From Trametes villosa (taxonomy: Eukaryota > Basidiomycota > Agaricomycetes > Polyporales > Polyporaceae): DNA of 64,000 nucleotides. The stretch lies in assembly GCA_002964805.2 (NCBI GenBank), contig PUDQ02000016.1:620001-684000 (forward strand), in the 5' to 3' direction. The translations under genes and the position numbers were made by a program. This document shows positions 45,523 through 59,998 of this stretch, piece after piece (the stretch's first letter is position 1; each line of letters opens with the position of its first letter). The notes under the pieces were generated by a model. That model saw only the letters and a program-made list of their open reading frames with translations, had not been told where the DNA came from and searched no databases.

Positions 45523-46242
45523 CTACAGGACGGTATCTCCGGCATGGTCGCTCTCTTCATCAGAGACCGGCTCTTCCTCTACCCCACGCAGCAGCCTACA
45601 GACACTCACGATATTGAACGACGTACACCACTTATCCCATGCCGATTTGTTGTACACCGCCTTCCCATCGTCGCCTACGCGGAACCTCGCGATGTTCGTC
45701 TCGACCAAGACAAGATCTTTGCGGCCAAGGTCTTTAGACTGCAGCGTCGGCATGAGAGACTTCGCAGCGTAGCCCCCCGAGGCATCGTACGTGTGCTTGA
45801 AGTGATAAGCCTAAGACGAGGTCAGCCAGACAACGCGGGCGAAACAGTAAGCCTGTACTTACGACACGGTCGTTCGAGTTCCTTCCGTGCATAGTCTGCT
45901 TGCGGCCTGCGCTGATGAGGTCTTTGTACTTGTCGTCCCACGGTAGAGTACCTACATCATGATCAGCATAACAAAGGACGCTGTAGCCACGGCAATACTC
46001 ACCTTTCCACGTGCTGTACTTCGATAGGATGTTGCGCGACTGGGACAGATCGCTCTGCTGCACCGGCCGCAGGTAGATCGTCACGAACTTCTTCGGAAGG
46101 TCGCCCTTCTCGACGAAGTAAGCCTGATCAACCTCGCCGACCAACACGACCAAGAGCGGCTTCCCCTTGAGGCACAGAAGGTGGTCGTCCTTGTCCCACT
46201 TAGCTCCCCAGCGGAGTCCGGCGGGGACGTGCGCTATGCCGT
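45523..46242 (-). pseudogene. Split host gene, 3' part
   Basis: Continues the gene that starts at 61059, after the retrotransposon. Reading leftward from the insertion: a long exon (YGIAHVPAGLRWGAKWDKDD ... KYSTWKG), an intron with GTGAGTATT donor near 46,003, an exon TLPWDDKYKDLISAG ... RNSNDRV, an intron with GTAAGTACA donor and GTCTTAG acceptor, and a last exon (AYHFKHTYDASGGYAAKSL, then DLVLVETNIARFRVGDDG) ending SDHAGDTVL at 45523. All splice sites are canonical and no stop was seen, so the only lesion is the insertion. Family not recognised. Confidence 0.75.
46239..46242 (+). repeat. Left 4-bp target-site duplication of the Gypsy element
   Basis: CCGT, repeated at 59999-60002 directly after the 3' LTR. 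Removing the element and one copy rejoins the host reading frame. Confidence 0.85.
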
Positions 46243-47001
46243 TGATGCGCACGGTGCCACGCTGACCCCAGGATCTTTCGCCAGGCCTCTACGCTCGGCG
46301 CACCGCGCGTTATGCACGCGCTCGCGGAAGTGCGCGCGTCCCTCCCTTCAGGTATCCGCAAGGGCGCGGTGGCTCCGTTCGCGACGGGCCCGGAGGCTTC
46401 GCGCGCGTTGAGCGGGACTATCGGCCGAGCGGGCGGAGCGCGAGTCATCGCCAAGGTCGGGCGCAGCACGCGGGCAGCCTTATCGGGCGCGACCGCCAAT
46501 CGTAGGGCGGGCATTCGCGAGCGCGCGTGGACTCGCGCGCGGCGGGGCCGCTGTCCTCGCGATTCACGGCGCGGGCCCCCGAAGGTGTTCTGGATCCTTT
46601 CGCTGGCCTAGGCTTTGGTAGCACGATCCGGCCATGTACCTACGCGCCTCGGGCGCCAGAGAACTCAGATTCCTTTCCCCCTCACCCTCAGGAGCTCAAT
46701 TGCGTCTGCGTCCCCTCTGCGAATAGCGTCCTGCGTTGCGTTGCGTTGCATTGCGAACTGCGCCCCTGCGTCTTCCCTAGCGTTTCCGCTTGCGCTCCCG
46801 CTGCGAAGCCTACCCGCCAGCGCTCCGCGTACGCGTTGCGATCCGCGCGAGACTTGCCAGCGCATCGCGCTTTCGCCGCAAGGGCACCCCGACTCGAACC
46901 TCCCTTCTCCTCCGCTTCGCGCTTAGCTTCCCTACAGGCCTCGTCCTCCGAAGGCCCTCGGCCTGTCTCTGGTTGTCCCTAGGGGATAGTTGAGTGCATC
47001 A
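46243..47001 (+). repeat. 5' LTR
   Basis: 759 bp, starts TGATGCGCACGG and ends GAGTGCATCA; the terminal 6 bp are inverted repeats of each other. Identical to 59240-59998 except for one C/T difference seen. The 3' half has a short TTGCG tandem run (TTGCGTTGCGTTGCATTGCG). Confidence 0.96.
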
Positions 47002-47004
47002 TTC

Positions 47005-47022
47005 TGGTGACCACCGCAGGGG
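47005..47022 (+). other. Candidate primer-binding site
   Basis: Starts TGGTGACCACC three bases after the 5' LTR. TGG would pair with the CCA end of a tRNA. I cannot name the tRNA from memory, so this remains a positional call. Confidence 0.4.
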
Positions 47023-47567
47023 GGTGGAGTTAGAACTTCACAGTCGGCTTCCTCCTTCGACGGCAACAGCGCCGTCCCCGTCGCGATTACGCGAAAGACT
47101 CGCTCCCGCTCGCGACAGGCTTCCCTCTCAGAGGAGCTCCTCTTCACTAGCTTCAAGCAGGCCGTCTCGCGACTCCGCAACAGGCTCGACCTCGAGCAGA
47201 CGCAGGCGATCCTTGAACCCATTCACGCTATCCTCGAAAAGGGAGCAGCAGTACTCGCTCGCGACCCCGACGCGACCGCGTGGATCCGCGACACTGCGCT
47301 TCAAGTCATCGAATCCGCTGTCGAACCCCGTCAGACCGAAGAGCTCGACGACCTCTCCATCCTCGACGACTCGGCAATCTTCCAGACTCCAGCAGCGAGT
47401 CCGAACTGCGCCGTACCGAGCTCTCTCCCATCGACCAGTCCGCCTCCGACGAACAGGCCTCGCAACCGCGTTCTGAAACACCGTCGTCGCCAAGCGTACC
47501 GTCTATCAGCCCTCCATCTCCGACTCTGTCGTCTCGCTCGCGCTCGCCCTCGACACCTAGCGCCAAC

Positions 47568-50048
47568 ATGCCGGGAGAACACGACGACCAATCGCGCTCG
47601 CGGCGCGCTATGCCGCCCGCGCGCCATTCCACGGCGCCGATCTTCGACCCGCAGGAGGTACGCACATTGCGTCGCTTCTTCCAGGACCTTGAGGCGCTCT
47701 TCGAGATCTGCGAGGTGGAGGACGACCAAGCCAAGAAGCGGTGGGTCATCCGCTACCTCCCGATCGCCGTGAGCGACCTCTGCGAAGGGCTACCCGCCTA
47801 CACCGAGGCCGCGAAGTCGTACGAGGACCTGAAGAAGGCGATCACCGAGTTGTACCCCGGGGCAGGGGAGACGCGCAAGTATTCCGTCGCCGACGTCGAG
47901 GCGTTAGTTGCGGCGCGCGGCGCGCGCCCCATCACCAGCATCACGGAGCTATCGAGCTACCACCGCGACTTCCTCGCCATGACCACCTACCTCATCAGCA
48001 AGGACCGCATCTCGAAGTCCGAGCAATCGCGCCTATTCGTTCGCGGCATCCGCTCGCCCCTATGGGAGCAGGTCTCGCAGCGTCTTCAGCTTAAAGAGCC
48101 CGACCACTACCCCGACGACCCGTACCCGCTCGAGACGGTCTACAACGCGGCGGCCTTCGTCCTTCATGGCACCTTGGCCTCTAGTCCGCCCTCGGTTCCC
48201 GCAGCAAGCGAAGCGCGAGGTGCCCCGAGTAGCGGAGGCGCGACCGTGAAGGTCGAGGACTTGGGCTCGATCCTCAGACTCCTCGCGCAGTCGGTTGGCG
48301 AAGGGAGTGCGAACGCGATCGCGAACGTCGCGAACTGCGTCGGAGGCCCGCCCGGAGGTGGTCCGCAGCGATTCCAGCCCCCGCCGCACGCTCGGGGGGA
48401 CGCTCGCTACCCACCCGGCAACGGACCCGGGGGGAACTTCTGCCACTACTGCGGCAACGCGAACTGCCAGATGAGGACTTGCCCGTTCGTGGAGGAAGAC
48501 GTGCGCGGTGGTCGCGTCATGCGCAACGAGCAGGGCTATGTGGTACTCCCGAACGGTAACTTCATCCCAAGGACGCTCTCCAACCCTCACTTCGAAGGCG
48601 TGACGATCCGCGACCGCGTCTACGAGTGGCACCGTCGCAACCCAAACGCGCTGGCGCATAACGCGAACGCGCCCGCGGCCGCCCAGCTCAGCTTCGAGAT
48701 CGCGAACGACGACTACGACTACCCCCCTCTGCAGAGTTTTCAGTTCAGCGCCGTGGACCGCATCGCGCAGCTGGAACACGAGATCTACGCCCTCAAGCAG
48801 GTTAGTGCGCGACAGGGTGGGAGTCGGTTTGACGGAGTAGAGATCCCGCCTTACCGGGGTCCGCGCTCGCGCCCGACGTCGCCGTTCCGACCTGAGCGAG
48901 GGCGCTCTAGTGACGCGCGCTCCGAGCAGCCGCGCACCAGAGACCCCTCCCAGCAAAGGATCGGCCCCCCGTCGAACCCAGCCAGCTCAGGGCAGCGCCA
49001 GCGCGATCCTCCGCCTCACCAGCCAGCTCCCCCACGGGACTCGGGCGCGCGCGAGGCGCGTGACACGACTATCAGCACTTCCGCGCGCGAGCAGGAAGCG
49101 CCACGCGCAGCGGCCCGGCCACCTACCCCCTTCAAGGAACCTGCCGCGCCCCGCGAAGCAGCGCCGAGCGGTAGTCGCGAGCACCCGTTCGCGAAGTCGC
49201 GCGACGCGACGTACGCTCCTCCGCAGAACCGTAACTTCGGAGCGCCGCCTGCGAAGCCGAAGGAATCCGAGCGCGAGACAGCCTACCGCACGCACGTCCC
49301 GGTCTATAACGCCAAGTTCGCGGAGGAGATCTTTGAGCGTTCGATGAAGACCCCGGTGATCACGCTTTCGCCAGAGGAGCTCCTGTCGATCTCACCTGAG
49401 TTGCGCGCGAAGTACCGCGAGGCGGTCTCGCCGAAGCGCGTCCCGACGGGCGCGCGGTCGGTGAACTTTGCCAACGTCGACTCCTTCCCGGACCATCTCG
49501 AGAACGACGTGTCATGTCACGGCGACCCACTGGAGCCCGGAAGCTTGGTCATCCCGGACCCGTACGAGGTCTACCTACGCAGCGACGCGGCGAAGGACGA
49601 GACGCCGCCCCTCAGCGTCGCGAAGGAGTCTCACGCACTGCGCTCTATCTCGGGGCTGGTCGACAACAAGGAGTGGATCGAGGGGATCATCGACCCAGGT
49701 TGCATGATCATCGCGATGTCTGAAGGAGTCTGTCACGCGCTGGGACTCGGGTACGATCCCACCATCCAGCTTCGCATGCAGTCCGCGAACGGCGCGTGCG
49801 ATTACTCCTTGGGGCTCGTTCGGAACGTCCCGTTCCGCGTCGCGGACATCGTCCTCTACCTGCAGGTCCACATCATCCGCAACCCTCCCTACGACATGTT
49901 GCTGGGTCGGCCATTCGACGTACTCACGCGCAGCGTCGTCAAGAACCTCGACGACGAAGGCCAGACCATCACCCTCCACTGTCCGAACACGGGGCAAGTC
50001 GTCACCATCCCGACGCAGCCGCGCGGGAAGGCTCGATTTCGTGCTTAA
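47568..50048 (+). CDS. gag: Gag with aspartic protease
   Basis: 826 residues from the first ATG in good context (CCAACATGCC) at 47568; the frame is open further upstream but without ATG. Residues about 20-220 form a helical capsid-like region (FFQDLEALFEICEVEDD, KYSVADVEALV, SRLFVRGI). Residues 292-305 are a zinc knuckle of form C-X2-C-X4-C-X4-C, with Cys in place of the usual His. A long basic Pro/Arg/Ser-rich linker follows. The protease starts with IIDPGCMIIAMS (Asp 709), where DPG replaces the usual D-S/T-G, and closes with MLLGRPFDVLT. Gag packages the RNA into particles; the protease matures the polyprotein. The ORF ends CGT GCT TAA, with pol open in the +1 frame. Confidence 0.93.
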   Translation: MPGEHDDQSRSRRAMPPARHSTAPIFDPQEVRTLRRFFQDLEALFEICEVEDDQAKKRWVIRYLPIAVSDLCEGLPAYTEAAKSYEDLKKAITELYPGAGETRKYSVADVEALVAARGARPITSITELSSYHRDFLAMTTYLISKDRISKSEQSRLFVRGIRSPLWEQVSQRLQLKEPDHYPDDPYPLETVYNAAAFVLHGTLASSPPSVPAASEARGAPSSGGATVKVEDLGSILRLLAQSVGEGSANAIANVANCVGGPPGGGPQRFQPPPHARGDARYPPGNGPGGNFCHYCGNANCQMRTCPFVEEDVRGGRVMRNEQGYVVLPNGNFIPRTLSNPHFEGVTIRDRVYEWHRRNPNALAHNANAPAAAQLSFEIANDDYDYPPLQSFQFSAVDRIAQLEHEIYALKQVSARQGGSRFDGVEIPPYRGPRSRPTSPFRPERGRSSDARSEQPRTRDPSQQRIGPPSNPASSGQRQRDPPPHQPAPPRDSGAREARDTTISTSAREQEAPRAAARPPTPFKEPAAPREAAPSGSREHPFAKSRDATYAPPQNRNFGAPPAKPKESERETAYRTHVPVYNAKFAEEIFERSMKTPVITLSPEELLSISPELRAKYREAVSPKRVPTGARSVNFANVDSFPDHLENDVSCHGDPLEPGSLVIPDPYEVYLRSDAAKDETPPLSVAKESHALRSISGLVDNKEWIEGIIDPGCMIIAMSEGVCHALGLGYDPTIQLRMQSANGACDYSLGLVRNVPFRVADIVLYLQVHIIRNPPYDMLLGRPFDVLTRSVVKNLDDEGQTITLHCPNTGQVVTIPTQPRGKARFRA
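49708..50048 (+). promoter_or_regulatory. gag/pol overlap, presumed +1 frameshift zone
   Basis: The pol frame is open from 49708, while gag runs to 50048, so a +1 shift anywhere in these 341 nt would fuse the proteins. No ATG opens pol here; the first in-frame ATG is far downstream inside conserved sequence. The last codons of gag read GCT TAA C: slippage from GCU to CUU at the stop would enter pol (AAC next). The exact site is not determined. Confidence 0.5.
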
Positions 50049-53000
50049 CGCGCCCGCGTCGCCATCTTCGTACCTGTTCGCGGACGCGGAAAGCGCGGAG
50101 GTGGCCGTGATCGTGGAAGCGGACGGCGACGTCCCTTTCATCAGTGCCTATACCCCAGTTACCCCTTCTGCCGCGGACTCGTCTATCTCTCTCTCTCTCT
50201 CTGCGCTCTATCTCTCTGCTTGTGACCGTCTCCCAGAAATCGCGGCGTCCTACGCCCTAGAACAAAACCCACAAAGCGAACCGGTTTCACGTCTCTCTGG
50301 CTCGATCTCTCTCTCAGCTTCGGACTCTTTCCCTGTCTCGGGAGTGGATCGCGTAGCGACGCACTGCTCCCCGAACCCGGCGCAACCCGAGGTTCAAGAT
50401 ACCCGAGCTACCCCCTCTCAGTTCGCGCTCAGGACGGAGGCAGGTGTGCGCGTCGTTTACGCGCGCGAAGACCCCCGCGACACTGCGGCGACCTTCATCC
50501 AGTCAAAGAAGAAGTACAAGCCCGTCGCGCAGAAGGTCCGCGCCGTCCTCGGCACTGTGCCGACCCAGTTCCGCATAGAGCGCAACATTCGCGGCGACCC
50601 GCTCGCCGACATGCCACGGCTCGACCCGCGCCCGCCGGAGTTCGTACCCATCGGTCGTTATACGCTGGAGCGGAAGGAGGCGTTCGACAAGCTCCACGGC
50701 GGCGACTTCCTCTGGCCAGAGGAGAAGCGCCTTCTCCATCACTTCATGACGCTACACCACGACGCTTTCGCTTGGAGCGACGCGGAGCGCGGGTGCTTCA
50801 AACCGGAGTACTTCCCGCCGGTGGAGTTCCCCGTCCTCCCACACACCCCGTGGGTCGAGCGCAATATCCCCATCCCTCCAGGGCTCTACAAGCAGGTCTG
50901 CGAGATGCTGAAGAAGAAGATCGCGGCCGGCGTGTACGAGCCCTCCAATTCCTCCTATCGGTCGCGCTGGTTCTGCGTTCTCAAGAAGGACGGGAAGTCT
51001 CTGCGCATCGTCCACAGTCTTGAGCCGCTCAATAAGGTCACGATCCAGCACTCAGGGGTCCCGCCTACGCCCGACTACCTCGCAGAGCAGTTCGGAGGGC
51101 GCGCGTGCGGCGCGATCCTCGACCTCTATGTCGGCTACGACGAGCGGATGATCGCGGAGACCTCGCGCGACCTCACCACCTTCCAGACCCCCTTCGGAGC
51201 CTTGCGTCACTGTACGCTGCCGATGGGATGGTCCAATTCCGTCCCCATCTTCCACGAGGACGTCACCTACATCTTGCGACCGGAGATCCCCGAGTTCACG
51301 GTACCCTACATCGATGACGTACCTGGCAAGGGCCCCGAATCCGACTATCGCGGCGAGGACGGCACGTACGAGACGATCCCCGCGAACCCAGGCATTCGGC
51401 GTTTCGTCTGGGAGCACTTCGGCAACATGAACCGTATCGTGCAGCGCATGAAGTACGCGGGAGGCACCTTCTCGGGCACGAAGTCGATCCTCTGCGCGCG
51501 CGAGATCATGGTCGTCGGACACCGGTGCACACCAGAGGGACGTCTACCGGACGAGTCGCGCGTGGCAGCGATCAAGAACTGGGGTCCGTGCAAGGATCTC
51601 TCCGAAGTACGCGCCTTCCTCGGAACGGTGGGCGTAGTGCGCATCTTCATCCGCAACTTCGCGAAGCGCGCGAACGCGCTAGTCCAGCTCACGCGCAAGG
51701 ACGCACCCTTCGAGTTCGGACCCGCGCAGCTCGCCGCGATGAACGATCTGCGCCAAGCGCTTCTCGAGTCTCCGGCCCTCCGCGCGATCAACTACGACTC
51801 TCCCGCGCCGGTCATCCTCGCAGTCGACACGTCCTACATCGCCGTCGGCTACCACCTCTGCCAGTGCGATGAAGAGGACCCGCGCAAGCGGTTCTACAGT
51901 CGCTTCGGGTCGATCACGCTCAACGAACGGGAGGCGCGCTTCTCCCAACCAAAACTGGAGCTCTATGGCCTCTTCCGCGCCCTGCAAGCGACGAAGCTCT
52001 ACCTAGTCGGCATCCGCAGACTAGTAGTGGAAGTGGACGCGCGCTACATCCGCGGAATGCTACAGAATCCGGACCTCGCCCCCAGCGCGAGTATAAACCG
52101 CTGGATCCTCGGAATCCTAACCTTCCACTTCCATCTCGTTCACGTTCCCGGAACCTCCCACGGACCGGACGGTCTCTCGCGGCGACCGCGACAACCAGGA
52201 GACCCTGAAGTTGACGAAGAAGATGGCGAGGAGTTCGAGGACTGGATCGACAAGATCCACGGCTTCCTGCACCAGCTACTTCCGCGACCGCGCAGCCGCC
52301 CTCCTCGCGAACGCGACCCCATACACCTCTTCGCTCTCGCCGATGCGACCGAGGACGGTCACGATTTCAGCGAGGGGGAGGAGGCGCAGGACACGGAGGC
52401 ACAGAACGCGAGCGAAGCAGGAGGACCGAGTACGAGGGCGAAGAGGGCCAAAGCTCGAGCGAAGGTCAGGTTCGCGTCAGAAGACGACACGCGCGCGATC
52501 CCAGAACCGGAGGGCGAGGCAGAGATGCCCTACGCGGAGCACACTCGGCGAGCGGACGAACGGCTAGAACGCGTCGCGAGTTGGTTGCGCACGCTCCAGC
52601 GACCCGAGGGACTCAAGGACGCGGAGTACCGCACCTTCATCAAGTACGCGCAAGGCTTCTTCGTGGATGGCGAGCGACTGTGGAAGAAGGACTCGCAAGG
52701 CGCACACAAGCTCGTAGTCTGGCGCGCGAGACGGCTGGCGACTCTCCGAGCGGCACACGACGACATAGGACACCGCGGCAGCTACGCAACGTTGCATCTC
52801 GTCGCCGAGCGCTTTTGGTGGCCCTCGCTCCGCGACGACGCGACGTGGTATGTCAAGACCTGCCATATCTGTCAGACGCGCCAGCACCGCAAGGTCCTGA
52901 TCCCTCCAGTCGTCGCTCGCCCAGGCGGACTCGGCGTACGATGGTACATCGACATCATGAAGATGCCTAGCTCAGGTGGATACACGATCATCGTTGTCGC

Positions 53001-53967
53001 GCGTTGCTCCGTGTCAGCGTGGCCGGAGTGGCGGATGCTGCGCTCGGAGAACGAGAAGACAGTCAGCGACTTCCTCTTCCAGGAGCTGCTCTGCCGCTGG
53101 GGCGCGATAGTCGAGATCATCACGGACAACGGCTCCGCGTTCATCAGCGCAGCGCGCAAGCTCGAGGAGCGCTACAACCTCAACCGCATCAGCATCAGCC
53201 CGTACAACTCGAAGGCGAACGGCATCGTGGAGCGCTCTCACTTCGATACGCGCCAGGTCCTCTACAAGGCGGCGGGCGGAGAACAGCACAAGTGGTCGCA
53301 GTACGCGCACTACGCGTTCTGGGCGGAGCGCGTCACGATCCGACGGCGCATGGGCTGCTCGCCGTACTTCGCGGTGACCGGCTGCCACCCGGTCCTCCCC
53401 TTGGACGTCGCGGAAGCTACGTACCTACTACCGCCTCCAGTCGGGCTGTTGTCCACCGAAGAGTTGCTCGCGCGTCGCGCGACCGAGCTACAAAAGCGTC
53501 AAGAACAGCTCGCGACGCTGAACTCGAGAGTCTATCGCGCGCGAGTGGAGGCGGCGCGCAAGTTCGAGCGCGACCACGCGGCCACGATCCGAGACTACGA
53601 CTTCAAGGCTGGCGCGCTGGTGTTGATGCGACACACGCAGATCGAGAAGTCACTCAACCGCAAGATGCGACCACGGTACACGGGCCCACTGGTAGTGATC
53701 TCGCGCAACCGCGGTGGGGCGTACGTCCTGTGCGAACTCGATGGGACCGTGCTACATCGCGCGGTGGGCGCGTTCCGCCTGATCCCCTACGCCGCGCGAC
53801 GCACTATTCCGCTCCCCGAGAACTTCGCGGACATCTCGCAGAAGAGGCTAGCGGAGCTGACGGAGGGCGACGACGATGGCCTCGACGACCCGGAACCAGA
53901 GCTACTCGACGGCGCGCGCGACGTAGACGGCGACGTCGATAGTAGCGACTCCGAGGACGACGAGTAA
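50041..53967 (+). CDS. pol: Pol: reverse transcriptase, RNase H, integrase
   Basis: 1,308 codons if counted from 50041 (a GTG, not a true start; expression probably needs a frameshift from gag). After a low-complexity N-terminus with a CT-repeat Ser/Leu run come KYKPVAQKVR and a DPLADMP region typical of Agaricomycete Gypsy elements. Reverse transcriptase: LKKDGKSLRIVHSLEPLNK, LPMGWSNS and the catalytic YIDD (Asp 425/426). RNase H: AVDTS (Asp 596), KLELYG, VEVDARY, GPDGLSRR. Integrase: H-X4-H and C-X2-C zinc site, then Asp 971 (WYIDIM), Asp 1029 (TDNGS) and Glu 1064 (IVERSH), a DDE triad with 34 residues between the last two. A GPY-type module with RYTGPLVVI follows; no chromodomain is evident. 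All catalytic residues are present. Confidence 0.95.
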   Translation: MLNAPASPSSYLFADAESAEVAVIVEADGDVPFISAYTPVTPSAADSSISLSLSALYLSACDRLPEIAASYALEQNPQSEPVSRLSGSISLSASDSFPVSGVDRVATHCSPNPAQPEVQDTRATPSQFALRTEAGVRVVYAREDPRDTAATFIQSKKKYKPVAQKVRAVLGTVPTQFRIERNIRGDPLADMPRLDPRPPEFVPIGRYTLERKEAFDKLHGGDFLWPEEKRLLHHFMTLHHDAFAWSDAERGCFKPEYFPPVEFPVLPHTPWVERNIPIPPGLYKQVCEMLKKKIAAGVYEPSNSSYRSRWFCVLKKDGKSLRIVHSLEPLNKVTIQHSGVPPTPDYLAEQFGGRACGAILDLYVGYDERMIAETSRDLTTFQTPFGALRHCTLPMGWSNSVPIFHEDVTYILRPEIPEFTVPYIDDVPGKGPESDYRGEDGTYETIPANPGIRRFVWEHFGNMNRIVQRMKYAGGTFSGTKSILCAREIMVVGHRCTPEGRLPDESRVAAIKNWGPCKDLSEVRAFLGTVGVVRIFIRNFAKRANALVQLTRKDAPFEFGPAQLAAMNDLRQALLESPALRAINYDSPAPVILAVDTSYIAVGYHLCQCDEEDPRKRFYSRFGSITLNEREARFSQPKLELYGLFRALQATKLYLVGIRRLVVEVDARYIRGMLQNPDLAPSASINRWILGILTFHFHLVHVPGTSHGPDGLSRRPRQPGDPEVDEEDGEEFEDWIDKIHGFLHQLLPRPRSRPPRERDPIHLFALADATEDGHDFSEGEEAQDTEAQNASEAGGPSTRAKRAKARAKVRFASEDDTRAIPEPEGEAEMPYAEHTRRADERLERVASWLRTLQRPEGLKDAEYRTFIKYAQGFFVDGERLWKKDSQGAHKLVVWRARRLATLRAAHDDIGHRGSYATLHLVAERFWWPSLRDDATWYVKTCHICQTRQHRKVLIPPVVARPGGLGVRWYIDIMKMPSSGGYTIIVVARCSVSAWPEWRMLRSENEKTVSDFLFQELLCRWGAIVEIITDNGSAFISAARKLEERYNLNRISISPYNSKANGIVERSHFDTRQVLYKAAGGEQHKWSQYAHYAFWAERVTIRRRMGCSPYFAVTGCHPVLPLDVAEATYLLPPPVGLLSTEELLARRATELQKRQEQLATLNSRVYRARVEAARKFERDHAATIRDYDFKAGALVLMRHTQIEKSLNRKMRPRYTGPLVVISRNRGGAYVLCELDGTVLHRAVGAFRLIPYAARRTIPLPENFADISQKRLAELTEGDDDGLDDPEPELLDGARDVDGDVDSSDSEDDE
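52345..52385 (+). repeat. Internal copy of the polypurine-tract region (candidate central PPT)
   Basis: 52345-52380 matches 59203-59238 at 34 of 36 positions (GCGACCGAGGACGGTC, two mismatches, then GATTTCAGCGAGGGGGAG). It lies inside pol between RNase H and integrase, in a poorly conserved acidic linker. A second plus-strand priming site is inferred, not shown. Confidence 0.6.
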
Positions 53968-54438
53968 TCAGACTCCGTGTTACGTGTACGATACTTTTAC
54001 GACGACGGACCACTCTTACCAAATACCAGTCTCTCTTTCTTCGACCCGGCTTTTCCACTTAAGACTCTGTCTCGCTTCCTTTTCAAGCGCGCGCGCGAGT
54101 CCTTTATGTGCGCGTACGCTTCGCTAAGTCCGCGCCTCGTCCTCCAGGCCCGCGAAGTACGCGCGAGTACGAGCAGCGTGCGACTAGGCACGTTATTCCC
54201 GACCTCACACATTCGTTTGCCAAGAACTATACAATTTTCATTGATTTTCTCTATGTACCTTTATGAGCCGGCTACTATGGACGAAGAGTACGGGCGGGTG
54301 CGGCGATACATACTGACGCGAGGGTTACAGGAGCGAAGCGAGCGGCGCGAGCGAAGAGCGGATACGTACAACACGAAGGCGCGTCCGAGGCGAGCCAGCC
54401 CGCCTGAGCGCGCACCAAGAAGCGACCCCCTTTCCCTC
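53968..54438. other. Spacer between pol and the convergent antisense gene
   Basis: 471 bp, less GC-rich than its surroundings (for example ATACAATTTTCATTGATTTTC near 54,230). It probably holds the 3' ends of pol-sense and antisense transcripts. No ORF of note. Confidence 0.5.
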
Positions 54439-56944
54439 CTACTCAGCGCGCGCGGCGCCGGAACCGGACGGCTCCCCTGCGTTGGACGACGCGGCCTCCG
54501 CGGCGAGAAGCGGGAGGGGGCCGGCCAGGTCGTCGGTCCACGCGGGGCTGTACACCATCTCGAGCCTCTTCATCGTCACGGCGCGCATAGCCTGCATCGC
54601 GGAAGCGTAGCCAACGATGTGTGCGTCCGCGGCCAGCGAGGCGTCGCGGTGCGCGGCGCGAACCAGCGAGGATCCAGCTGGGAGGGGCTCGAGCGGCTCG
54701 GACGGCTTCCCGTCGCGTTGAGCGCGCAGGTGCGCGCGCGCGGCCTGGCGGAGTTGGGCGACGAGGTTGTCGACGATGGCGTCGATCGTGTCATCGCTGA
54801 GGGCGCAGGACTGGAGCGAGGAGGTGAGGAGGGAGACGTCGGGGGTAGGCTGGAGCCCCTCCGCGTTAACGGAGGCGAGAGCGGATGGCGGAGCGGGAAC
54901 GTAGGCGGGCGCGGGACCGAAGGAGGGCGGAGGCGGCTCGAGGGCGATCTCGGGTAGGTCGGGCGAGGGAGGCGAAGAAGGAGGGGCGGGTGCCTGCGAA
55001 GGTCCACCCGAACGCGCCGACGAGGCACGCGAGGGCGCGCGGGAGACCTGCGGAGGCAAAGTCAGGCGGCGGCGAAGGAGCGCGACGCGAAGGGGACCCA
55101 CCTCGACATGGGAGAAAGCAGAACGTACCCGGGCAGGAACGGCGCTAACGCGAGAAGCGTCAACGTCACCCGCGAGCTCGTCCTCGCTAGACTCCGTGGC
55201 GGGCTCCTGGGGCTCGGACCGCGGCTCCACGTCGGCGTCGGATTGGTCGGAGGCGGCCTGGTCGGGAACAACGACGTCGGGGTCCTCGGAGCTGCTGGGC
55301 TCGCGAATGCCTTGCAGAGCGGCAAGGCCACCACCCGACTGTCCAGCGCGGGGTCGGCGGGTGTTGTTAGCCGTGGCGTCTATGACGGGTGCGCCCTCGT
55401 CGAAGCGGGCGGCATGTTCCTCCAGGGCCCAGCTAGGGATGGCGACGCCCCGCGACGAGAGGAGGCCGGCGACGAGCGTACCGTCGGGGCGCAACGCTAG
55501 CAACGGAAAGTCAGCAGCGAACACGCAGAGCATCGCGAAGGAACCTACCGCGCGGGTACTCCATGAAGTCGTACCACTCGCCGAAGTTCGGAGCCTCCTC
55601 GAGTCGCTGTTCCTTGGTAGCGGCGGCGTTCAAGTAGCAGCCGCGCTTGGAGACAGCGCACTTGGTGCACAACGGCAGGCCGTCCACCATGTGGCACTTG
55701 TCGGGCTCCGCGGAGCACCACTCGCACTGCGCGGGTTAGAGGAGCGAAACGCGGAAGCGGGGGAGGACTCACATGGGCCTCGAAAGGGATGCGGTCGGCC
55801 TCGCTAGCGGGACGGAAGATGGGCGAAGGGAAGCGCTTGCGCGCGATGGCAGCCTTCGTCTCCTCGGGCCAGTCCTCGCCCTCCTCTAGGAGCGGGTGCG
55901 GGCGCGGCCCCTGCATGTCGACGTCGGAATCACCATCGAGCGCATTGGCAGCGCGCCCCTTGCCGTGTCCGCCCGCGCGGCCTTTGCCCTTCTTGTCGGA
56001 CTTGCTCTTCTTCTTCTTCTTGGGCGGCGTCACGTGGGCGGCGGTCTTGCGCTCGCTCTTGACAGCCGCAGCGCGGCGAGGACCGCGCGCCGGGCTGGGT
56101 GCGGCTTCCGCGTCGCTGGAGACCTCGATGGCCTGTGAAGCGGCGGGCGTCGAAGGTCCCGCAGCCTTCTTCTTGCCGGCCGCCTTCTTGCTGGTGGTGG
56201 TCGCGGCGCCCACAGCTGGCGGCGAGGACGAGCGGCGCTTGCGCTTGGCCGCGACAGAAGTGGAGGGCGAAGAGACGCCGCTAGGGGCGGAGCGCGTGCC
56301 TCGCGAGGCCGAAGGCTCGCCGCGGACGGCGGTGTTGCGCCCGCGAGCGGAGGAGGAACCGGCGGAGGCCTTCTGGGCGGCTTGCTTGAGGTCGAGCGTC
56401 GCGATGGACGGTTCCGGGAGGACGTTGCGGCGAGGGGTGTAGCCGGGCGTGGTCCCCACCGGCCGGGCGCGAGGAACCGTCGACTCCGGAGCCGCGGTGA
56501 CGGCGGCAGGCGCGACGGCGGCAGGCGCGACGGCGGCGGGAGCGGAAGCGACGGCAGGGGCGAAGAACCGCGTGTACGCGGCGCGGTAGAGGGGGTTCGT
56601 CCACGGAGTGCCGACGTCTACGACACCGTCCGCGCCGACGGCGCGATTGCCCGTCGCGGCGATGACCTCCTCTAGCGCGTCGACGGTGTCCTCCTCCGTC
56701 TCGCCGTTATTCATCAAGAGCCGCTAGACACGAGGGTCAGCAGAGTAACCGGCGGGCGCGTGCGCGCGGGACCTACCGCGATCTCGAGAGCCTCGCGCGC
56801 GAAGTTCTCGCAATCGGCGTCGGACGACGAGTTGGACGGGCGGCCATTCCGGATCAGTTGGTCGAGCCGTCCCCACTGTTGACGCTTGGCTGCGGCGAGG
56901 GTGCTGCGGGCGGGAGGGGTAGCGGGAGTAGCGGGAGGAGCCAT
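54439..56944 (-). CDS. Antisense gene A: Zn2Cys6-like protein inside the Gypsy element
   Basis: Four exons: 56944-56777, 56723-55773, 55726-55549 and 55496-54439, with GT-AG introns of 53, 46 and 52 bp. The phases fit and give 784 residues. Exon 1 (MAPPATPATPPARS) and exon 2 contain a helical segment, then a long disordered region with Lys runs (KRKRR; PPKKKKKSKSDKKGKGR) that look like nuclear localisation signals. Exon 3 starts CEWC and has Cys spacing C-X2-C-X6-C-X8-C-X2-C-X6-C, which fits the Zn(II)2Cys6 binuclear cluster, at about residues 374-401. Exon 4 is Pro/Ser-rich with a helical C-terminus (DTIDAIVDNLVAQLRQAARA). It may be a nuclear DNA-binding or regulatory protein of the element. 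No homologous function is known to me. Confidence 0.8.
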
Positions 56945-57379
56945 GGGGAGAGGAAGAGGGAGAGAGAGAGAGGGCGGAGGGAATGCGCGGCCAAAGCTGG
57001 CGACCTTATGCGCGAGGGCCTTCGCGCGGGAGACGCGACAACACGAGGGTCGCGCACGGCGTCTCACCTCGCGGCGCGCGGCCTGGGCACTGCAGGACCA
57101 CGGAGGGACGCTTCTCTGATGCGCGGTGAACTCGCAGTGTCGCTTCGCCGCGCGGCAAAGCGGCCCGGGCTCCCGCGACCCTGCAATACGCCGCGCGAGG
57201 ACAAATACTCGCGGTCACGAGGGCGCGACGCGCGAGGTCGCGCGATCCACCTTCGCGTTGCACGACCGCGGGTCCGAGGCCTTCTCCCGCGGCGCGACCG
57301 GCTTCAGGAGTTGTCAGTCGCGGCATTCAATTCTATTACCGAGGGCGAAGTACAACACGTGCTACCAATCGCCTGCATC
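56945..57379. other. Spacer between antisense genes A and B
   Basis: 435 bp with the presumed promoter of gene A. The leader of gene A contains a CT-rich run (CTCTCTCTCTCCC on the minus strand, about 56,960-56,975), common near fungal transcription starts. Apart from that it is GC-rich with no supported ORF. Confidence 0.45.
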
Positions 57380-58192
57380 TCACTCCGCCGCGGGTTCGGC
57401 TTGCTGGCTAGCGAATACCGCCGCTGCCGTTCTCTCCGGGTCCTCGCCCATCGGGAGGTGCGTGTAGCCGACGAGCAGGTCCGCGAAGGACGCGTCCGCG
57501 AGATCCGCGCCCCGAGTTGGCGGGTCGCTTGGCGGCAAGGGTGGAGATTCCAGCGGCGGGATCGATTCGGACGCAGTTATCGGGCGACCGGAGAAATCGA
57601 GTGGGACGATACTGGCGTGGTGGATGGCCTCGCGCGTGCGGACGTTATCGCGCTGGAGCGCGGCGAGTTGGGCGAAGATGCGTTGGGTAGAAGGGAGCAG
57701 GAAGGCAGCGTCGGCCCCGCTGCGAATGACGACTCGGCGCGCCGCGGCGGCGCGCTCCAGGAGCGCTAGGAGCTCTCGTTGTTCGAAGAGCGCTTCTTCG
57801 CGCTCGCGGTCCAAGGCGACCCAGGCGAACCGACTCCGGAAGTACGCCAGAGCGGACGGAGGCGCGGCGGGCCCGCGTAAGACGCGTTCGACGCGGTCGG
57901 TGGCGTCGCGGAGGTGGTACGAGGTCAGCTCGAGCGGCATCGCGAGTTCCTACGGCGAGTGTTCAGTATCGGAGGCGCGCAAGGAAGACAAGCCGCGGAC
58001 GCGGTCCTCGGGACGTACGGAGGCTTCCAGGAAGCGATCTAGGGCGACTTCCCACTCGCGAGGGTCGACGTCGCTGCGACGGGCCAAAGTCTCGAGCGCG
58101 CGCGAGGTGCGCTCGATCTGGGCGACAGCGAAGGGAACGGAGGCAGCCTGGAGCGCGCGAATGTCGTCGCGTAGGAGCGGGAGGGCACTCAT
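57380..58192 (-). CDS. Antisense gene B: helical protein of unknown function
   Basis: Two exons (58192-58019 and 57949-57380) joined by a 69-bp intron with donor GTACGT, branch-like ACTGAAC and acceptor CCGTAG; in phase, 247 residues. Starts MSALPLLRDDIRALQ. Almost entirely helical, with heptad-like leucines (ALFEQRELLALLERAAAARR, IFAQLAALQRDNVRTREAI), then a Pro-rich segment and an acidic C-terminus ending QQAEPAAE. A coiled coil that might oligomerise or pair with genes A or C is inferred. Without the intron the first ORF would stop after 80 codons. Confidence 0.7.
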
Positions 58193-58432
58193 GGTTCGCG
58201 AGGCGGTCGGCGCGAGTCAAGCACCTCGCGATCTTAAGGGCTTCGCCGGCAGTGACGTCGGAGGCGTCGCGCATTGTTCACCCGCTGACAAGATCTATTT
58301 GGGACATCGATACATCGCTCCTCGTGGCCCGAACCCTCTACCCAGCTTCGCGTCTCCTCCACCCGGCGCGGTAACCCTCCTCCCCGGCCCCTCTCGTGTT
58401 CGCCTGCGAATATGGCTGGCCGTCTGTCGTCG

Positions 58433-59126
58433 TCAAGCGAAGCCGCCGTTCTCGTAGGCCTCCAGGTCTGGCAGTCCGTACCAGATATCAGAACCGCGGC
58501 GCGGGACGAGGCTAGCAAGGGCGGGCGCACCGGCGGCGGCACGCGCGGCAGCGTCGTTAGTCGCCTCTGCGAGAGCGCCCAGCTCGCGCCGAATAGCTCG
58601 CAGGTGTTGGCGCACGGAAGCCTCGATGTCGGTAGCGCGCGCGAGCGCGAGCGCGCCTTCGGCACCCGCGCGAGTGAAGGCGTGGCGAGCAGCCAGTACG
58701 CGGGCGAGTTGGACCTCCAGGCGCATCTGCGCGGCCTCCGCGACACGGGTTTCGATCTCCCTACGGACGGACGCCAGCCGCTCCAGGAAGTACGGCCGCA
58801 GGCCAGCATCCGTCGTTTGGGCTCCCACCGCGCGCTCGATCCGCGCGAGGAGGGGAGTGAGGCGAGCGTCACCGTCCGTCACGATCAAGTACGACTCCTG
58901 CACCCTGTCAGGCTGGGTTCGCGAGCAGCGCGCGACGACTCACGGTCGCGAAGATGGTCTCCTTCAGCGCGGCGTACCAGTCCTCCTGGCTGAACGACAT
59001 CGCATCCTCCATCTCCTCGAGGTTTGCAGTCTGCCGCTCGAGTTGCTGAAGGACAAGCGGTTGGGCTTCCTCGCGGAGCGTGGCGACGGCGTCTTCGGTA
59101 GCGCGGAGTCCGTTCATGGCGTACAA
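58433..59126 (-). CDS. Antisense gene C: coiled-coil protein of unknown function
   Basis: Two exons (59126-58944 and 58897-58433) with a 46-bp GT-AG intron, in phase, 215 residues. The start is MYAMNGLRATED (or the second Met). Exon 1 has LQQLERQTANLEEMEDAM; exon 2 is a long run of Leu/Ala/Arg helix (ARIERAVGAQTT, RREIETRVAEAAQMRLEVQL) ending YENGGFA. An A/T-rich TATTTAAG on the minus strand at about 59,165-59,172 lies some 40 bp upstream of the ATG and could be its TATA box. The gene lies just inside the 3' LTR, so the LTR may contribute its promoter in antisense direction. Confidence 0.7.
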
Positions 59127-59202
59127 GAGCTGAAGAGCGCGGCGCGCCCCCGATTCGCGAAGTCCTTAAATACGCCGCGACGCGGACGCGATCGCATCGA
59201 TA

Positions 59203-59239
59203 GCGACCGAGGACGGTCGGGATTTCAGCGAGGGGGAGA
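59203..59239 (+). other. Polypurine tract region before the 3' LTR
   Basis: GATTTCAGCGAGGGGGAGA ends exactly at the LTR boundary, the expected place of the plus-strand primer. The same region, with the preceding GCGACCGAGGACGGTC, occurs in pol at 52345-52380. Confidence 0.75.
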
Positions 59240-59998
59240 TGATGCGCACGGTGCCACGCTGACCCCAGGATCTTTCGCCAGGCCTCTACGCTCGGCGCAC
59301 CGCGCGTTATGCACGCGCTCGCGGAAGTGCGCGCGTCCCTCCCTTCAGGTATCCGCAAGGGCGCGGTGGCTCCGTTCGCGACGGGCCCGGAGGCTTCGCG
59401 CGCGTTGAGCGGGACTATCGGCCGAGCGGGCGGAGCGCGAGTCATCGCCAAGGTCGGGCGCAGCACGCGGGCAGCCTTATCGGGCGCGACCGCCAATCGT
59501 AGGGCGGGCATTCGCGAGCGCGCGTGGACTCGCGCGCGGCGGGGCCGCTGTCCTCGCGATTCACGGCGCGGGCCCCCGAAGGTGTTCTGGATCCTTTCGC
59601 TGGCCTAGGCTTTGGTAGCACGATCCGGCCATGTACCTACGCGCCTCGGGCGCCAGAGAACTCAGATTCCTTTCCCCCTCACCCTCAGGAGCTCAATTGC
59701 GTCTGCGTCCCCTCTGCGAATAGCGTCCTGCGTTGCGTTGCGTTGCATTGCGAACTGCGCCCCTGCGTCTTCCCTAGCGTTTCCGCTTGCGCTCCCGCTG
59801 CGAAGCCTACCCGCCAGCGCTCCGCGTACGCGTTGCGATCCGCGCGAGACTTGCCAGCGCATCGCGCTTTCGCCGCAAGGGCACCCCGACTCGAACCTCC
59901 CTTCTCCTCCGCTTCGCGCTTAGCTTCCCTACAGGCCTCGTCCTCTGAAGGCCCTCGGCCTGTCTCTGGTTGTCCCTAGGGGATAGTTGAGTGCATCA
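59240..59998 (+). repeat. 3' LTR
   Basis: 759-bp copy of the 5' LTR with T at 59946 where the 5' copy has C at 46949 (a CpG to TpG change); no other difference was noticed by eye. Confidence 0.96.

Follow-up and report, generated by a model that had tools for sequence, protein, structure and literature searches.

A spliced three-gene antisense module in a Ty3/Gypsy-type retrotransposon family of Trametes villosa

We analysed a stretch of 64,000 nucleotides (nt) from Trametes villosa (assembly GCA_002964805.2, contig PUDQ02000016.1, positions 620,001 to 684,000), called the window below and listed in this analysis as G000:C16:620001-684000. The genome comprises 46.7 Mb in 140 contigs, which carry C numbers here. 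The window holds a long terminal repeat (LTR) retrotransposon at 46243-59998, and 5.3 kb separate the stop of its pol frame (53967) from its 3' LTR (59240). In this interval we found three consecutive minus-strand genes, g1, g2 and g3, where an earlier note on this DNA had placed them. The comparison of copies described below shows them to be protein genes that selection has preserved in the element family, with six spliceosomal introns among them.

The g1 gene (59117-58433) codes for 212 residues and has a single intron, as has g2 (58192-57380), which codes for 247. With three introns removed g3 (56944-54439) gives 784 residues, and with a fourth one removed it gives 766. The earlier note had proposed 784, 247 and 215 residues and five introns; its size for g2 holds, those for g1 and g3 have to be corrected, and the intron count rises to six. 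The overlooked intron lies in g3 and is hidden in the window sequence alone because its 54 nt are a multiple of three and in frame. In the window all six introns run from GT to AG and contain CTGA or CTAA as branch motif. The candidate TATA box TATTTAAG stands 54-55 nt ahead of the g1 ATG in all six aligned copies.

The element itself is, by its structure, a Ty3/Gypsy-type LTR retrotransposon (Table 1). Its Pfam domains follow the Gypsy order of protease, reverse transcriptase (RT)/RNase H and integrase, and it has two LTRs, a target duplication and a polypurine tract. In the scan of the pol frame the rve core stayed under its cut-off, and RVT_1 was absent from the matches listed. Since the LTRs are identical at 758 of 759 positions, with CCGT at both ends, we take the element to be young and recently mobile. 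The sequence GGGGGAGA stands directly before the 3' LTR in all eight other copies in which the start of this LTR was read. The gag-protease and pol frames overlap at 49708-50048 in different reading frames, which suggests a programmed frameshift.

Table 1. Positions in the window of the element's features and of the antisense gene models
Feature	Positions	Strand	Remarks
5' LTR (TGATGC...GCATCA)	46243..47001	+	759 bp; target duplication CCGT directly before
gag-protease frame, open stop to stop	47217..50048	+	Asp_protease_2 E 1.1e-5
pol frame, RT/RNase H then integrase	49708..53967	+	RT_RNaseH_2 1.3e-10, RT_RNaseH 8.4e-9, Integrase_H2C2 1.7e-16
g3 exon 5, C-terminal	54439..55047	-	stop ends at 54439
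g3 intron 4	55048..55101	-	54 nt, GT-AG with CTGAC
g3 exon 4	55102..55496	-	minus-strand gene model and comparison of copies
g3 intron 3	55497..55548	-	52 nt, phase 1
g3 exon 3, Zn2Cys6-like	55549..55726	-	C-x2-C-x6-C-x8-C-x2-C-x6-C ... W-Y ... R; aligned with 12 relatives
g3 intron 2	55727..55772	-	46 nt, phase 0, ends directly before first Cys
g3 exon 2	55773..56723	-	N-terminal domain common to relatives outside the element; lysine-rich stretch
g3 intron 1	56724..56776	-	53 nt, phase 0
g3 exon 1	56777..56944	-	ATG at 56944
g2 exon 2	57380..57949	-	minus-strand gene model
g2 intron	57950..58018	-	69 nt; GT, branch motif and AG kept in 7/7 copies
g2 exon 1	58019..58192	-	174 nt, ATG at 58192
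g1 exon 2	58433..58897	-	minus-strand gene model; dN/dS 0.048 against the C1 copy
g1 intron	58898..58943	-	46 nt; codon position identical to g2 intron
g1 exon 1	58944..59117	-	174 nt, ATG at 59117
TATTTAAG, candidate TATA box of antisense promoter	59165..59172	-	55 nt upstream of g1 ATG
Polypurine tract GCGAGGGGGAGA	59228..59239	+	adjoins 3' LTR
3' LTR	59240..59998	+	759 bp; target duplication CCGT directly after

A 645-bp probe made up of g1 exon 2 and the adjoining spacer had nine matches in the genome, and copies found in this way contain the module by construction. We fetched the stretches of seven probe-matched copies, plus C88 and C16:563k. A less biased count starts from the RT: nine loci have a full RT match of 100% identity (rounded), and seven of them have part of an antisense g3 where it would be expected. 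The remaining two, C37:1765 and C82:491, are cut off by the contig end ahead of the g3 position. This bears out the view that the genes are a standing part of the element family and no one-off insertion. LTR matches number 45 across the contigs, few of them examined further.

Conservation of the splice sites across the copies, put forward in the earlier note as a check, was found for all three genes. In g1, the GT, branch motif and AG are kept in each of the seven other copies with both exons (8/8 with the window); in one copy that has diverged by about 15% the intron measures 47 nt and still has its splice signals. The g2 intron (66-70 nt) keeps all three signals in the six other copies with both exons, and those of the C1 copy are kept with 32 of 70 alignment columns substituted and five gapped relative to the window. 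Spliced g3 models cover the window, C37, C90 and the C1 copy. In C37 and C90 introns 1-3 are kept, the second and third with changed lengths, and the spliced frame is open. The C1 copy gives an open g3 frame of 722 residues after removal of introns of 54, 50, 56 and 50 nt, and all four agree with the window introns in alignment column and phase, at 331 matches among 679 aligned residues (49%). The site of intron 4 measures 54 nt in C37, 58 nt in the stretch L044 and 50 nt in the C1 copy; there the intron is GC-AG and its removal is required for the frame. The C1-type copies (L030, L031, L033 and L046) have a GC donor (GCGAGT) at this site. In C3 the site reads GCCAGT and the donor has probably been lost. 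The stretch L044 (C16:563000-572500) holds a diverged g3 with a partial LTR nearby, and no g1 or g2 match was seen in the part read.

The substitutions point to purifying selection on the minus-strand frames, for which the earlier note had proposed a test. Between the window and the C1 copy g1 has 28 synonymous and 4 nonsynonymous changes, a ratio of nonsynonymous to synonymous rates (dN/dS) of 0.048, and against C37 it has 15 and 2. The corresponding counts for g2 are 88 and 52 (dN/dS 0.152) and 11 and 9 (0.293). By codon position 1/2/3 the window and the C1 copy differ at 3/1/28 sites in g1 and 35/17/88 in g2, and the g2 coding sequences differ by indels of 3 and 9 nt. For g3 we obtained 0.328 against C37 and 0.174 for the last 140 residues against the C1 copy, calculated from the three-intron model with the 18 codons of intron 4 counted as coding.

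Divergence is unevenly spread along the element. Relative to the window, the gag-pol pieces of C37, C90, C1, C24 and C88 have identities of 91.7-100%, for most of them 97-100%. The middle of g3 has 73-85% identity in C37 and C90 and is not alignable as DNA in C1, C24, C13, C3 and C88; identity then climbs again through g2 and reaches 93-100% at g1 in the copies compared. This pattern makes the element a mosaic whose variable core lies in g3. There the synonymous rate (dS) reaches up to 1.07 (residues 421-490) with dN/dS of about 0.3, which points to an old divergence under constraint that was imported by recombination, rather than to positive selection. In the C37 copy (L025/L026) the two LTRs differ at 65 of 746 positions and gag-pol is mostly 97-99% like the window, and this suggests recombination between elements.

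The g1 and g2 proteins are related to each other. Their Smith-Waterman score is 129, a value reached by none of 2000 shuffles (42.8 ± 7.3). The alignment runs from the start codon, and among the best five offsets the ungapped match is positive only at offset zero. Exon 1 has the same length in both genes and the intron stands at the same codon boundary. By these features g1 and g2 are old tandem paralogues. In the genome 18 of 19 g1 matches (E up to 10) lie in element copies and the one elsewhere has E 1.6, and all seven g2 matches at the default threshold lie in element copies. A search of a large protein collection, which may be poor in fungi, gave no homologue of g2 (E<=0.01), g1 (E<=0.1) or g3 residues 360-490 (E<=0.1), and the four exon frames of g1, g2 and g3 scanned matched no Pfam family at E 0.1. 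A candidate g1 relative in an element family with 50% RT identity (tblastn E 0.003) was discarded because of its place, about 4 kb past the 3' LTR of that element.

The third exon of g3 is the part with a recognisable pattern. Zn2Cys6 clusters follow the spacing C-x2-C-x6-C-x5-12-C-x2-C-x6-8-C, and the exon has this spacing in the window and in C37; some relatives deviate, with x5 to x9 in the first loop. PF00172 matches 5 of 13 members of the zinc-exon family at E<=1 (best 3.2e-4). Foldseek gave a single match in the PDB for a model of the exon (pLDDT 91), a weak one (E 0.94) to PPR1 in a Zn2Cys6-DNA complex. The eggshell protein 9pgb, the best match of the zinc profile by E value, was dismissed as cysteine-rich bias. 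Among the matches listed for this genome, 31 to the Zn2Cys6 family were above the cut-off; 14 control genomes had none.

Relatives of this exon occur outside the elements, at least eight on C19 at 42-71 kb (L047-L049: C19:41000-47000 and 54000-73000), in two orientations, and one in a gene at C1:4255k. Six cysteines and one tryptophan are identical in all 13 aligned zinc exons. Five C19 rows were chosen by their cysteine pattern, so the cysteines are given by the choice and the tryptophan is not. The intron borders of the relatives were read by eye. As in the element g3, an AG stands directly before the first cysteine in the C1:4255k gene and in five of the eight C19 genes. Upstream stops make an intron necessary in the C1:4255k gene and in three of these five; in the other two (57257 and 55807) no stop closes the upstream frame, and the AG may be part of the exon. 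The remaining three C19 genes have no acceptor before the first cysteine. A GT donor follows the W...R tail in most members. These comparisons place g3 in a Zn2Cys6-like gene family of which this genome also has members outside elements, and the introns around the zinc exon match in part of the family.

Region 54000-63499 of C19, with four of the eight zinc exons, is essentially single-copy, save for a 0.6-kb end repeat and a few short pieces. No transposon domain was found by Pfam in ten frames of L047 and L048, gag and pol gave nothing below E 0.1 in L043 or L047-L049, and none of the genome's LTR matches lies on C19. At C1:4255k the gene is single-copy, its flanks are duplicated elsewhere, and the 7.5 kb read there showed no pair of direct repeats around it.

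A second type of element also carries a member of this family. L045 (C53:23800-31500) is a gag-only, non-autonomous element with related LTRs, which have only positions 191-759 in common with the window LTR. Its gag is 56% identical and it has two short pol-like stretches; its long frame contains no RT or integrase domain. Its zinc exon exists in at least 11 copies in the genome, one with a stop. Between two of these copies the long exon before the zinc exon has 10 synonymous and 3 nonsynonymous changes, the zinc exon 2 and 4, and the first exon region 6 and 5. The acceptor of the zinc exon lies 12 nt earlier than directly before the first cysteine, and the N-terminal part is closer to C19 genes (best E 5e-9) than to the g3 of the autonomous element.

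The zinc exon alone gave a tree without resolution. A joint tree included 11 of the 13 members, all but C19_62209 and C19_44793, whose N-terminal parts had not been aligned. It grouped the autonomous-element g3 with the C1:4255k gene (support 96/92). A clade restricted to the two element types was rejected in the approximately unbiased (AU) test (p-AU 0.004), and a clade of both types with C1:4255k was compatible (p-AU 0.493). Long branches meet in this tree, and the groups were named after the sequences had been seen. Since the wider clade is not rejected, a single capture with one later escape may be compatible with the tree.

Two relatives of the element by RT do without the module. The one with 71% RT identity (LTR pieces at C1:6632642 and C1:6640119) has its 3' LTR within about 0.5 kb of pol, and the one with 50%, near C1:3.77 Mb, within about 1.3 kb. 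Because these relatives are without it, the module would have been gained in the lineage of the window element or lost in theirs.

Taken together, we regard it as probable that this is a standing antisense module, with g3 derived from the host family and serving as a nuclear regulator together with g1 and g2. Several observations weigh against this. The two RT relatives without the module indicate that it is not required for retrotransposition in general. Close C1-type copies have higher dN/dS, up to 0.375 in g1 and 0.75 in g2, on 1-12 changes. Decay is seen as well: in C37 g1 has lost one nucleotide near its end and ATA stands in place of the g2 start, g1 is split in C90 and contains a stop in C16:598k, C88 is without g1 exon 2, all of g2 and the first part of g3, and C24 and C3 have insertions in g3. 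The window zinc exon matches no Pfam family at E 10 or 1, has no run of basic residues, which we take to be usual for Zn2Cys6 proteins, and its PDB matches are weak. The proposed function of g3 is drawn from domain resemblance, and transfer between element and host in either direction appears compatible with the data. On the question of decay, the earlier note had named random stops and lost splice sites as evidence against its reading; for most copies the outcome favours that reading, and some have decayed as listed. The three genes are present in full copies, and deletions or insertions in the module occur in others (C88, C24, C3 and C90). Of the nine places holding part of g1, five hold it whole (window, C1, C24, C13 and C3).

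The minus-strand frames could in principle be chance open frames in GC-rich DNA, perhaps the mirror of a plus-strand gene. The window has 59% GC and long spurious frames are abundant, and the plus frame that shares third positions with g1 and g2 also has low dN/dS (0.07 and 0.23). However, in the comparison of the window with C1 this plus frame contains two stops within g1 and two within g2, and the longest plus-strand frames of the region vary between copies; on these grounds we rejected both chance frames and mirror genes. The minus strand also keeps its splice sites and branch motifs, and its frame runs on across introns that have diverged; together with a g1/g2 paralogy that begins exactly at both ATGs, this makes the explanation very improbable. 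Another thought is that the antisense transcript itself matters, as double-stranded RNA or by interference with the sense RNA, and that the proteins are incidental. Such a role is suspected for antisense transcripts of other elements (PMC7264820), and pol and g3 are convergent. The strong constraint on g1 and g2 at the level of amino acids speaks against it, as do g3 alleles that stay open and spliceable though their middle has diverged past DNA alignment, and we consider it improbable.

We give a similarly small chance to the idea that the cargo is a host regulator carried along, from which the element profits only indirectly. The existence of g3 relatives outside elements would fit, but g1 and g2 were found only in element copies apart from the one g1 match at E 1.6, antisense g3 is regularly found in loci with identical RT unless a contig end cuts them, and even the gag-only element retains an antisense family member. 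The suggestion of the earlier note that the genes may serve the host was supported by no result of this analysis. A less remote alternative, although still an unlikely one, reverses the direction of transfer, so that the C19 array and the C1:4255k gene are escaped or domesticated element genes. The grouping of C1:4255k with the autonomous-element g3 agrees with it, and the tree gives no direction. Against it, the C19 set exceeds the element genes in size and diversity, and no remnants of LTR, gag or pol turned up there.

On the preferred reading of a standing module, the persistence of the introns would follow from established biology. Minus-strand introns read CT...AC in the genomic RNA and are not spliced there. 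The element RNA is the opposite strand and stays unspliced, so reverse transcription copies the introns intact, and an element of this kind can copy intron-containing genes. Antisense transcription would be driven by the module's own TATA promoter, placed between g1 and the polypurine tract; g2 and g3 may have starts of their own, and the transcripts would be spliced and translated. The g3 protein would then enter the nucleus, bind DNA and regulate the element through its LTRs, copy number, silencing or target choice. The g1 and g2 proteins may act as its partners, a role for which their conservation and position are the evidence. Most likely g3 was captured from the host family, either as antisense RNA or as unspliced DNA. 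Template switching may have swapped its variable core between element lineages. More tentatively, and somewhat short of an even chance, the LTR lineage could be a vehicle for intact intron-bearing host regulatory genes: a zinc-cluster family captured antisense at least twice (in the autonomous and the gag-only element) and kept by selection, its core diversified as an exchangeable cassette, beside two element-specific paralogues.

Antisense genes as such are already known from LTR elements. Plant Gypsy elements of the Retand, Grande and RIRE2 type have antisense open reading frames between pol and the 3' LTR, termed aORF-3R (PMC7264820, PMC11963269). The likeness extends to position and orientation, presence in most copies, non-autonomous members and a proposed nuclear or DNA-binding character (PMC7264820, PMC11963269), and the window element shares an opposite frame between pol and the 3' LTR in most copies with conservation at the protein level. 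Unlike these, it has three genes, six introns and two paralogous genes, and TRP28 (PF04195) of the Retand lineage was not among the Pfam matches of the g1, g2 and g3 exon frames. In the main text of the Retand paper the word 'intron' does not occur (PMC11963269). Similar genes outside elements are described as lacking for antisense extra genes and the origin of most as unknown (PMC7264820), whereas the g3 of the window element has relatives outside elements. Boty of Botrytis cinerea is likewise a fungal Gypsy element with an additional antisense gene, brtn (PMC7264820, PMC8365987); as described in these citing papers, it has one such gene against three here.

Penelope-like elements of bdelloid rotifers, which are said to differ from all other retrotransposon types, also disperse intron-containing genes, and an antisense template was proposed for the retention of the introns (PMC3846280). 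Both cases concern a retroelement that moves intron-bearing genes of host type, but there the host genes are framed by non-LTR terminal repeats and moved in trans (PMC3846280), unlike the resident module of the window LTR family. HBZ of human T-cell leukemia virus type 1 and other retroviral antisense genes lie on the minus strand near the 3' LTR, and HBZ acts in the nucleus (PMC11963269). The likeness is one of position, strand and, as proposed for g3, action in the nucleus; the window element differs in its three genes and its candidate promoter outside the LTR. The HBZ transcript is itself spliced. With Zn2Cys6 (GAL4-type) factors of PF00172, g3 shares the cysteine spacing, alongside weak profile and fold matches; it differs in the missing Pfam match, the unusual W-Y...R tail and an exon flanked by two introns. 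We met no spliced multi-gene antisense module of an LTR element in the literature searched, which left most subscription papers outside its coverage. Within that scope, a spliced three-gene module with relatives outside elements appears to be new.

In this family an LTR element carries intron-bearing genes, and their splice sites were tested by comparing copies. It also bears on the question of where antisense extra genes come from: relatives outside elements exist here, some with matching introns. The function of the antisense genes can be tested in a small fungal genome whose copies of the element differ in age. At the other end of the element, an open minus-strand frame (45734-46288) spans the insertion site.

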